Of a DNA stretch of 61,278 nucleotides, positions 36,263 through 39,738 are shown one piece after another. The DNA is taken from the NCBI GenBank assembly GCA_028697255.1, contig JAQVFM010000003.1, forward strand, positions 1 through 61,278. Reading direction: 5' to 3'. A program made the position numbers and the translations under genes. Each line of letters opens with the position of its first letter. Positions within the stretch are counted from its first letter, which is position 1. Source of the DNA: Oscillospiraceae bacterium (GTDB lineage: Bacteria; Bacillota; Clostridia; Oscillospirales; Acutalibacteraceae). The notes under the pieces are model-generated. The model was not told where the DNA came from. It was given only the letters and a program-made list of their open reading frames with translations, and searched no databases.

Positions 36263-37516
36263 TTGTCGAAATTTACTAAAAAAGGCGTATCACTTATCAC
36301 AGCCAAAGAACCGGCTGCATCACGCCCAATCGTTGATATAGCGCCATTATCACAGGTTACAGTCCCGCTTCTGTCAGCCAGCGGCGACAGCTTGCGTTCG
36401 GCTGTAAAGATTAACCAAACTGTGCTTCAGGGCGACCTGTTAGGTCTTGCCGAACCTGGGGCAGGATATCCTGTATATGCGCCGGTATCCGGGTTGTTGG
36501 TCGGTTTTCGTGAAATACAGCACCCACTGCTTGGAAACGTAAGCTGTGCGGTGCTTAACTGCACTATAGCCGGCAGCAAATATAATAAGCAAGATCAAAG
36601 GTCGGTTGACAAATCGGCTGATTATATAAAGCTTGCTCAAACGATGGGAATCATTGATGAGCTTGACGGCATGCCGCTTGCAAAAAAACTTGCGCAGTGG
36701 AAAAAAATTAATTCGGTTTGTCTTGTTGCCGATGCCAGTGAACAGGAGCCTTACAGCTCATCGGCATGGAGCGTGCTGAACGAGTCGACTGCCGAGGTTG
36801 AAAAGGGTCTTGAGCTTATCTCGCTTGCAATACAGGCATCAAGCCGTCATATAGCGGTTATGCAGCCCAAAGCAAATTATAAAAAATTAAAATCCTTAAT
36901 AAAAAACACCGATCTTTTGCAGGTAAGCGGAAAATATCCTGCAAAATTAGTTTCGGGTGCCAAAAATATATGCCGCGTAGGAGTACAGGCGTGTCTTGCG
37001 CTTTACCATGCTGTTGAATACAACCGGCCGCCCTGCAATGTTGTTGTAACCGTGACCGGTGATGCTGTGACCAACGCGCAGAATGTACGTGTACCTATAG
37101 GCACTTTAGTAGACGATGTTTTACACTTTTGCAGGCTTTCGCCCCGCCCTGAATATGTAATAATCGGCGACGCAATGACCGGAAACACGATTAATCGCAC
37201 CGATATTCCCATAGTTCCCGGCATTACATGTATTATTGCACTTAAAGCATGCCCGCGTTCATCGGTACACCCGTGTATCGGGTGCGGGCGCTGTGTCAGT
37301 GCGTGTCACGCCGGCTTGCTTCCCTATGAAATTATGCGTCGGCTTGACAATATGCAATATGAACGGCTGGCATCACTGCTGGCCGAGGAGTGCGACGGTT
37401 GCGGCGCGTGCTCTTATGTCTGCCCTTCGGGTCTTGATGTTGCGGCAAAGGTAATCGAGGCAAAAGATGCACACGGCAATATTTTTTTAAAGTGGGGTAA
37501 CGGTGATGACATATAA
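36263..37516 (+). CDS. RnfC-like protein with two 4Fe-4S motifs and degenerate NADH/FMN region
   Basis: CIGCGRCVSAC and CDGCGACSYVCP; PLSQ...VSGLL barrel-sandwich region; VTVTGDAVTNAQNVRVPIGT; TTG start proposed at 36263 (ORF open from 36155). Confidence 0.82.
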   Translation: MSKFTKKGVSLITAKEPAASRPIVDIAPLSQVTVPLLSASGDSLRSAVKINQTVLQGDLLGLAEPGAGYPVYAPVSGLLVGFREIQHPLLGNVSCAVLNCTIAGSKYNKQDQRSVDKSADYIKLAQTMGIIDELDGMPLAKKLAQWKKINSVCLVADASEQEPYSSSAWSVLNESTAEVEKGLELISLAIQASSRHIAVMQPKANYKKLKSLIKNTDLLQVSGKYPAKLVSGAKNICRVGVQACLALYHAVEYNRPPCNVVVTVTGDAVTNAQNVRVPIGTLVDDVLHFCRLSPRPEYVIIGDAMTGNTINRTDIPIVPGITCIIALKACPRSSVHPCIGCGRCVSACHAGLLPYEIMRRLDNMQYERLASLLAEECDGCGACSYVCPSGLDVAAKVIEAKDAHGNIFLKWGNGDDI

Positions 37517-38498
37517 GCTTGCATATGCACCTTACATAAGGCGCACCGAACGCGCCGCAAAGCTGTCGGCAGACGTTTTGATAGCGCTGGTTCCGCTTTG
37601 TATCTTTTCAGCCGTATATTATGGACTACGACCTGTTTTATTGGTGCTGTCGGGTTTATTAAGCGCACTGATTTGCGAACTGTTTGCCTGCCTGCTGATG
37701 AAGCGTGTACCTACTGTAGGCGATGGCTCGGCTGCTGTCACAGGTTCAATTATCGGATTTCTGGTCTCCCCTCTCTCACCTTACTGGCTTCCTGCTGTGG
37801 GTGCTGCTTTTGCGATTTTAATAGTCAAAATGCCTATGGGAGGAAGCGGCCGCAATTTGTTTAATCCTGCCGCAGCAGGGCTCGCTGCAATTACACTTTT
37901 ATTTCCCAAATATATGTTTACATACCCTGATCCCGGTTTAGGCATTCCGCTGCCGATTTCGAACGAAGCTTTAGAAACCGTAGTAACACAGGCGTCGCCC
38001 GCATCACTGCTTATGAGCGGCGGCAAAACTTTATATACCCCCGCGATGCTTCTGCTTGGCGATTTTCCGGGTCCAATTGGTGCAACGGCTGTATTAATTC
38101 TTGTTTCCTGCGGGGTTTTCCTGTTTGCAAGACGAACGATTTCATCTTTTATAATACTTCCCTATCTTTTGGTTTGTGCAGTGATTGCGGCTGTGTTTCC
38201 GCGTGTCCTGGGAGGACAAGCAGACAGCATTATGGTTGAATTGTGTGCGGGATACCTTTTATTTGCCGGAATTTTTCTGCTAAATGATCCGGTAACCGCT
38301 CCCCGTCACTGGTTGGGACGAATAATCTGCGGAGTAATAGCCGGGCTTTTTGTAATGCTAATGCGATATTTCGGAAGGTTTGAGGAGGGCACCTGTTTTG
38401 CAGTTCTGCTCGTAAACGCCTTCTCATCAACATTCGACCGTCTCGGATGGTATGCGCTCAATTATAAACGAATAAGAAAAAGGAGGCGCAACAGATGA
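37503..38498 (+). CDS. RnfD-like membrane subunit
   Basis: FNPAAAGLAAITLLFP; DFPGPIGATA; NDPVTAP; overlaps rnfC-like gene. Confidence 0.87.
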   Translation: MMTYKLAYAPYIRRTERAAKLSADVLIALVPLCIFSAVYYGLRPVLLVLSGLLSALICELFACLLMKRVPTVGDGSAAVTGSIIGFLVSPLSPYWLPAVGAAFAILIVKMPMGGSGRNLFNPAAAGLAAITLLFPKYMFTYPDPGLGIPLPISNEALETVVTQASPASLLMSGGKTLYTPAMLLLGDFPGPIGATAVLILVSCGVFLFARRTISSFIILPYLLVCAVIAAVFPRVLGGQADSIMVELCAGYLLFAGIFLLNDPVTAPRHWLGRIICGVIAGLFVMLMRYFGRFEEGTCFAVLLVNAFSSTFDRLGWYALNYKRIRKRRRNR

Positions 38499-39154
38499 GT
38501 AAGCTGGAAAAGCAGCCGTTTTCAAAAGCAGACGGAGAGCTTCGTTATGTATTTTTATCCGCTTTTTTGGAGAATAATATAGTTCTTGTTCAGGCAATAG
38601 GCATCTGCCCTATTTTGGCAGTGGGCATTACATTGCAAAACGGAGTCGTGCTTTCTGTATGCACGGCCGCTGTGCTATTGCCATCCAGCCTATTTATGTC
38701 ACTGCTGGGCGAAAGGCTTCCGGCATGGCTGCGCCCTCCTATATATACGGTCGGGGCCGCATTGATATTGCTCGGTGCTGCAATAATAATTGACAGCTTT
38801 ATTTCTCATGAGCTATATGCCGCCCTATATGTTTTTTTGCCTTTAACAGCGGTGAATACGCTTATTTCATTCCGCGCCGGCGGCTTCTCGGTTAATCATA
38901 ATCCGGTCGTTGCTCTGACTGACGCTTTAGCTTCAACAATGGGATTCAGTCTTGTGATTTGTATTGTATCGGCAATTAGAGAAGCCGTGGCTCTCGGCAC
39001 ATTATGGGGAAAACCCGTAAAACTGGATATTCGGATACCAGAAATGGCGTTGCCGTTTGCGGCTTTTTTGCTGTTGGGATTTATATCTGCACTCCTGCAA
39101 TGGTCAAAATCTGTGATTGTCCGCCGCACGCGCCGAAAGGAGTTGTATAAATGA
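38495..39154 (+). CDS. RnfE-like (Rnf-Nqr family) membrane subunit
   Basis: ENNIVLVQAIGICPILAV; REAVALGTLWG; 4-nt overlaps on both sides. Confidence 0.87.
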   Translation: MSKLEKQPFSKADGELRYVFLSAFLENNIVLVQAIGICPILAVGITLQNGVVLSVCTAAVLLPSSLFMSLLGERLPAWLRPPIYTVGAALILLGAAIIIDSFISHELYAALYVFLPLTAVNTLISFRAGGFSVNHNPVVALTDALASTMGFSLVICIVSAIREAVALGTLWGKPVKLDIRIPEMALPFAAFLLLGFISALLQWSKSVIVRRTRRKELYK

Positions 39155-39738
39155 GCAGCTTTTTATGGAGCTTTTTTGCAGCCGCTGTTTTTCAAAATGC
39201 CGTACTTATGACAGGGTTTGGATCATCGGTATTGATTAGAATGACGCGCAAGCGCACCAATATCATACCATTTGGCATTCTGCTTTGTGTTTTTGCAACA
39301 TTAACTATGCTTATATGTTATCCAATCGACATGCTTATCGGCACCGAAGTGCTCGTAAAATGGATTCGTCCGTTTATAATAATTGCGATAACGTCTATCC
39401 TATATATTATAATAACACTAATATTAAACAAAAAATTTTCAGCGCTTTATTCCCGTATCAAACGGCTTGTGTCCATAGCAGCCTTTAACAATCTTGTAAT
39501 CGGAATTGTTATTGTTGTAAATCATCGGTTTGCAGTGTCGCTGTTAGGCGCTTTAGGGCTCTCCCTTGGCGCCTGTGCCGGTTTTTTGTTGCTGTCGTGG
39601 CTCATGGCCGACGGAATAGAGCGGCTCGACAATTCAGATGTGCCGGCATCTTTTCGCGGACTGCCTTCGGTGCTTATTTATCTTGGCATACTTGCATTGG
39701 CGCTTATGGGTTTTTCGGGTAGCGTTTCTATGGTATAA
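39151..39738 (+). CDS. RnfA-like (Rnf-Nqr family) membrane subunit lacking conserved cysteines
   Basis: C-terminal DVPASFRG...ALMGFSG matches RnfA; expected Cys positions are Ser and Asn. Confidence 0.82.
   Translation: MSSFLWSFFAAAVFQNAVLMTGFGSSVLIRMTRKRTNIIPFGILLCVFATLTMLICYPIDMLIGTEVLVKWIRPFIIIAITSILYIIITLILNKKFSALYSRIKRLVSIAAFNNLVIGIVIVVNHRFAVSLLGALGLSLGACAGFLLLSWLMADGIERLDNSDVPASFRGLPSVLIYLGILALALMGFSGSVSMV

Follow-up and report, generated by a model that had tools for sequence, protein, structure and literature searches.

Gene content of the locus

The stretch analysed here (the window) spans 61,278 nucleotides of contig JAQVFM010000003.1 (C72 in this analysis) of assembly GCA_028697255.1, from an Oscillospiraceae bacterium of the genus Candidatus Avimonas. 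The host is a gut and digester bacterium, and its genome comprises 1.59 Mb in 79 contigs and is 88.5% complete. An operon of four genes homologous to rnfC, rnfD, rnfE and rnfA, which encode subunits of the Rnf complex, lies on the + strand. The four open frames overlap in turn, and the D/E and E/A junctions each share the sequence ATGA. The RnfC-like gene (36263..37516) begins with TTG and encodes 417 residues, in which the N-terminal barrel, an SLBB-type region and the domain for two [4Fe-4S] clusters are kept. It is followed by the RnfD-like (37503..38498, about 330 residues), RnfE-like (38495..39154, 219 residues) and RnfA-like (39151..39738, 195 residues) genes. Pfam matches were all above cut-off: RnfC_N (1.9e-11) and Fer4 domains for C, PF03116 (1.3e-69) for D, and PF02508 for both E (7.2e-34) and A (4.9e-16). 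The NCBIfam rnfC/D/E/A models matched the four proteins below their curated cut-offs, indicating that these are divergent, and the window subunits scored better on Rnf than on Nqr models. Sequences of structurally solved Rnf subunits also matched the window proteins, confirming the assignment.

Coordinates, frames and Pfam matches thus agreed with a sequence-only reading of this DNA, which had proposed four intact, overlapping genes. The gene content also confirmed that neither rnfG nor rnfB is present in the window operon. Neither the operon nor the conserved genes around it include a gene for NqrF (with flavin adenine dinucleotide and a [2Fe-2S] cluster) or NqrC, and scans for promoters and terminators gave signal no better than chance.

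Residues lost and retained

In the published scheme, electrons pass from RnfB to the [2Fe-2S] cluster of A/E, the flavin mononucleotide (FMN) of G, the FMN of D, the riboflavin of D, the [4Fe-4S] clusters of C, the FMN of C and finally nicotinamide adenine dinucleotide (NAD+; reduced form, NADH) (PMC12174285, PMC9588780). In the window RnfA, both cysteine ligands of the [2Fe-2S] cluster are replaced: GICP has become GSSV, with Ser26 (codon 39226..39228) at the first ligand position, and TTNC has become AFNN, with Asn114 (39490..39492) at the second. RnfE keeps its first cysteine in GICP (Cys38, 38606..38608), the sole remaining ligand of four and itself Thr, Ser or Ala in several congeners, and has lost the second, VNC reading VNT (Thr122, 38858..38860). 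The proposal that three of the four intramembrane cysteines are gone was therefore exact on alignment of the ligand positions. No locus of the main variant clade retains more than one of the four, and the losses span six families. The first RnfA position is Ser, Thr or Asp in 21 of 23 sequences. Two residues flanking the lost cysteines, Gly27 and Asn116 (c_L005 numbering; Gly24 and Asn113 in the window protein, the latter directly before Asn114), are nearly invariant, ranking second and third in conservation among 196 columns.

We compared RnfD between 30 canonical and 36 variant sequences (24 from loci with C and 12 from loci without), using C. tetanomorphum numbering and residue roles from PMC9588780. 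The FMN site has been lost: Arg130 and Gly237 fell from 30/30 each to 0/36, Glu185 from 30/30 to 3/36 and Ser284 from 27/30 to 1/36. Ser replaces the FMN-bearing Thr153 in 25 of the 36 variants, and the Asp upstream of it is lost; in the window the flavinylation motif DxxTxAT reads TVVTQAS, with the Ser codon at 37995..37997. Along the ion path, Asp248 (31/36) and Phe244 (33/36) are retained, and gate residue Leu240 has become Phe in 33/36, as in NqrB at the same place. The window RnfD follows this pattern, with the Asn124/Asp248 site and Phe gate kept. The motif on the riboflavin side (Gly119, Asn121, Asn124, Asp248) is kept in loci with RnfC and eroded in those without: Gly119 is found in 24/24 versus 3/12, Asn124 in 21/24 versus 6/12 and Asp248 in 23/24 versus 8/12.

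RnfC has lost its FMN/NADH loop, GGAGFP reading ELDGMP in the window protein, and G137, G139 and G140 are found in only 0-2 of the 24 C-bearing loci. All eight cysteines of the two predicted [4Fe-4S] clusters are, however, present in 24/24 of these loci despite heavy divergence elsewhere; in the window they lie in CIGCGRCVSAC (37274..37306) and CDGCGACSYVC (37391..37423). The wider statement of the sequence-only reading, that most electron-carrier ligands are missing, was for this reason too broad. At one locus (L074:3485-4507) the RnfC-like protein is shortened to 340 residues with both [4Fe-4S] motifs present, in a genome without other Rnf.

Relative to the Rnf complex of known structure (ferredoxin:NAD+ oxidoreductase RnfABCDGE; 7ZC6, 9ERI, 8AHX), the variant shares C, D, E and A homologues, their order and folds, the RnfC [4Fe-4S] domain and the RnfD ion-path residues, but lacks RnfB, RnfG, the [2Fe-2S] ligand set, the D FMN site and the C FMN/NADH loop; some lineages also lack C. 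Na+-NQR (NqrABCDEF) has the same membrane core fold, and the variant RnfD gate carries two Phe like NqrB (equivalents of F338/F342), but NQR possesses a [2Fe-2S] cluster, covalent FMNs in NqrB and NqrC, and NqrF, none of which the variant has. NqrA shows that an RnfC relative can do without redox cofactors altogether (PMC12174285). The window RnfC also shares its architecture with PrdC-type proteins (TIGR04481), but the score was far under cut-off, there is no proline reductase context, and this RnfC is coupled to D-E-A.

Since RnfB and RnfG are absent, and the variant lacks the [2Fe-2S] site as well as the covalent FMN site in RnfD and the FMN/NADH site in RnfC, neither transmembrane electron transfer nor delivery of electrons to NAD+ should be possible along the Rnf route. 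Judged from its sequences, only the riboflavin of D (the site is kept and its occupancy is what we infer) and the [4Fe-4S] clusters of C would remain of the published path, and this remnant would face the cytosol with no route across the membrane.

Conservation and distribution

The CDEA locus was found in 12/12 Candidatus Avimonas genomes (the window and 11 others), with the same gene order and with both RnfA cysteines and the second RnfE cysteine lost throughout. In the genus the site consists of rpe, mecA on the opposite strand, CDEA and a DUF4015 gene. In the window the mecA homologue (PF05389; 35552..36133, - strand) is divergent from the operon, and the DUF4015 protein (PF13200; 39963..41216, + strand), a putative glycosyl hydrolase, has an N-terminal hydrophobic segment; both are conserved neighbours. 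The nearest loci in named genomes belong to several Candidatus Avimonas species and to Ruminococcaceae bacterium UBA5423 (Clostridia).

Beyond or at the edge of the genus, the CDEA arrangement recurs at L066, L067, L069 and L070 (L, G and f denote locus, genome and family labels as used in this analysis). The same site in other families of the order carries C at L049, L052, L055, L072-L075, L077, L079 and L125, and D-E-A only at L047, L048, L050, L071, L076, L078, L080-L083 and L090; at L084, D and A are accompanied by an E with an internal stop codon. In all, 12 loci lack C. Pairwise ratios of non-synonymous to synonymous substitution rates (dN/dS) were 0.04-0.37 for all subunits, D-E-A-only loci included, indicating that the four genes are under purifying selection. 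Random decay, which would have spoken against the sequence-only reading, was not seen in the relatives, where the frames are open. Several variant E proteins (L047, L048, L050, L067, L071) have extended C-terminal tails.

A profile of variant RnfA proved unusable as a class-wide survey tool, as it could not tell variant from canonical RnfA. The survey was done with PF02508 instead, and every sampled Rnf-bearing genome outside the order had at least one strong canonical match; some genomes of other orders had four matches, which may include extra divergent copies. A literature search for Rnf complexes lacking B or G or otherwise incomplete, and for Rnf paralogues of Clostridia, with coverage that mostly excluded subscription journals, returned no description.

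Genomes carrying only the variant

The window genome also holds a complete canonical rnfCDGEAB operon, on contig C69, with all four intramembrane cysteines intact, and one ApbE. In G206 (99% complete, two contigs), G030, G053, G123 and G167 the variant is the sole PF02508 locus. The FMN_bind domain (RnfG) is absent from these five genomes, as is the RnfB FeS domain, apart from one sub-threshold match in G123. In G070 and G113 the PF02508 pairs are all divergent and FMN_bind is absent. G022 (79% complete) has no canonical PF02508 pair and no FMN_bind, and a lone PF04060 match lies in a 451-residue frame elsewhere. The variant in genomes without RnfB and RnfG cannot rely on borrowed copies of either. 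ApbE is absent from six variant-only genomes (G030, G053, G070, G113, G123, G167), so that no ApbE-type covalent flavin is expected there; its absence does not serve as a general marker of the variant, since G206 and G022 have ApbE.

Origin of the variant and independent losses

The intact canonical loci sampled in the order read CDGEAB, except where a contig end cuts them, and all but a few match the regular expression for the cysteine motifs. An intact CDGEAB operon is followed by the same DUF4015 gene in families f2, f3 and f7, and in f18 a mecA homologue lies upstream of one. On this evidence the most fitting interpretation is that the variant occupies the native Rnf site and that the canonical operon found in the window's family is a second one, located elsewhere. 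Gene order and sequence comparison thus show that the variant descends from a complete rnfCDGEAB operon, at an ancestral site mecA'-CDGEAB-DUF4015. Two distinct types of Rnf operon also occur together in each of G107, G025, G042, G097 and G111, and DUF4015 adjoins one type in L119 and L120.

In a tree built from the joined D, E and A sequences, every CDEA and DEA locus fell on one side with high support, beside the canonical operon of f7, and the C-less loci fell in two separate clades. The same side includes L085 and L086 (genus g20 of f7) and L089 (genus g79 of f21). Given the long branches, the deepest joins (L085, L089) could reflect attraction. At L085:4857-6374 and L086:4852-6363 the RnfE-like protein has a low-complexity N-terminal extension of roughly 300 residues. 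Between D and E of L089, in the place of RnfG, an open reading frame of 189 residues (L089:4643-5212) encodes a protein with a single hydrophobic helix at its N-terminus and a low-complexity tail rich in D and T, and is a possible RnfG remnant.

Two f3 loci (L087:1023-5948 and L088:2374-7426) have a complete CDGEAB operon followed by DUF4015, in which both RnfA cysteines and the second RnfE cysteine are lost and RnfB has no N-terminal FeS domain; PF04060 is absent from G084. We considered these loci as an ancestral stage of the variant and rejected this, since in the tree they group with the canonical operons of f3 itself (support 89-97). They are an independent loss at an earlier stage. A further, partial loss of [2Fe-2S] ligands, also independent of the variant, was seen in a six-gene operon of f19 (L116, contig C9 of G042), where the first RnfA cysteine is shifted by one residue and the second RnfE cysteine is Gly; G042 also carries a second, intact operon, L117. 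Counting the main variant clade, L087/L088 and, in part, L116, the intramembrane cluster site is damaged at least three times in the order.

Proposed function and alternative explanations

We are confident that the locus encodes an Rnf-derived complex that is maintained by selection and has lost the transmembrane electron path. This bears out the sequence-only reading, which had suggested a complex of the Rnf/Nqr fold selected for a role other than ferredoxin:NAD+ electron transfer: cysteines were lost in six families, the FMN sites are gone, the genes are under purifying selection, and in several genomes, with no RnfB or RnfG, the variant is the sole Rnf-type locus. The alignments show that selection kept the D-E-A core, its discontinuous-helix motifs and, in RnfD, Asp248, Asn124 and Phe240/Phe244; where RnfC remains, its two predicted [4Fe-4S] clusters appear to be kept too, beside the RnfD riboflavin pocket. 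We suggest that D-E-A would form a conductance for an ion (Na+/H+) or small solute, kin to the translocation path of the pump. In C-bearing forms, a dead-end cytosolic relay from the RnfC clusters to the RnfD riboflavin would sense the cytosolic redox state and gate the conductance rather than drive it, and D-E-A-only forms would have discarded this gate. Taken as a whole, this redox-gated mechanism is a tentative proposal, to which we give slightly less than an even chance.

Several observations weigh against this proposal. The association between loss of C and erosion of the riboflavin site rests on two clades, hence on about two events rather than twelve, and Fisher tests of the counts take no account of this relatedness; 3 of the 24 C-bearing loci have His in place of Asn124. 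Asn90 and Glu185, which have been proposed to serve Na+ on the extracellular side of RnfD, are lost. Any change in the hydrophobic gate is towards greater bulk, and this speaks against an open pore. The conductance is suggested by retained residues and by the kinship of RnfD with urea/ammonium transporters, and the riboflavin and clusters of the variant proteins are themselves predictions. AlphaFold models built from window-genus alignments were of moderate quality (predicted local distance difference test score 69 for A and 62 for D).

In a redox-silent alternative, D-E-A would have gone back to being a simple channel or secondary transporter, with a urea/ammonium-transporter-like RnfD and an alternating-access RnfA/E; redox would play no part, and any RnfC clusters would be vestigial or serve structure alone. 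RnfD/NqrB shares structure and ancestry with the urea/ammonium transporter superfamily (UT, Amt) (PMC12174285). The A model had NqrE/RnfA first among its structure matches, and the D model had RnfD/NqrB first and then urea transporters, with UT-B at probability 1.00; this likeness is one of fold only, as the variant groups firmly with RnfD by sequence and keeps the hydrophobic gate, including its Phe, and the E-A partner dimer. The 12 loci without C, the mostly Ser, Thr, Asp or Asn residues at the former RnfA cluster positions, and the several hosts lacking ApbE, RnfG or RnfB also suit a plain transporter, but it leaves unexplained why RnfC keeps every Fe-S cysteine in all 24 loci amid heavy divergence and why RnfD keeps its riboflavin-side motif in loci with RnfC while the motif erodes in those without. 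Although we regard a plain transporter as rather unlikely, it accounts for the data nearly as well as redox gating does. The retained clusters, and the linkage to DUF4015 and mecA across families, could instead point to a sensor or regulator of redox state in the cytosol or envelope, in which RnfC/D relay signals to a partner such as the DUF4015 protein or MecA with no transport. The same linkage beside intact canonical operons is probably ancestral synteny, however, and D-E-A-only loci retain these neighbours without any redox centre, making a sensor improbable.

The sequence-only reading had named rnfG and rnfB elsewhere in the genome, as part of the same complex, as evidence against it. Both genes do occur, on contig C69, but within another complex that is complete in itself, and genomes with neither gene still carry the variant. 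We therefore rejected the idea that CDEA borrows RnfB and RnfG from the canonical operon to make an alternative working Rnf, for which the complete operon in the window genome would speak; with three to four [2Fe-2S] ligands, the D FMN pocket and the C FMN/NADH loop gone, it is very improbable. Least credible of all is a decaying relic or an artefact of metagenome binning and assembly. The window genome is fragmented, but the frames are open and in the same order in 12 genomes of the genus and in many genera, dN/dS is well under 1, and the variant also occurs in genomes that are close to complete, among them G206 (2 contigs) and G127 (1 contig). Returning to redox gating, the corresponding history, in which within one order a respiratory redox pump became a non-pumping complex, initially a relay-gated channel (CDEA) and then a plain channel or transporter (DEA), is in our view somewhat more doubtful than the mechanism itself.

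Implications

How Rnf and NQR couple redox to ion movement is unsettled, with either a Na+ path in RnfD/NqrB or a switch driven by the RnfA/E cluster placed at the centre (PMC12174285, PMC9588780). Here evolution has stripped the electron path and yet long retained a defined part of the protein. The surviving residues (Asp248, Asn124 and the gate Phe of RnfD, and the half-helix Gly and Asn of RnfA/E) amount to a map drawn by natural mutants, and may be candidates for ion handling as opposed to electron transfer. The variant is also a warning for annotation: the presence of rnfA, rnfC, rnfD and rnfE does not imply energy conservation by ferredoxin:NAD+ oxidoreduction, and some genomes carry the variant only.

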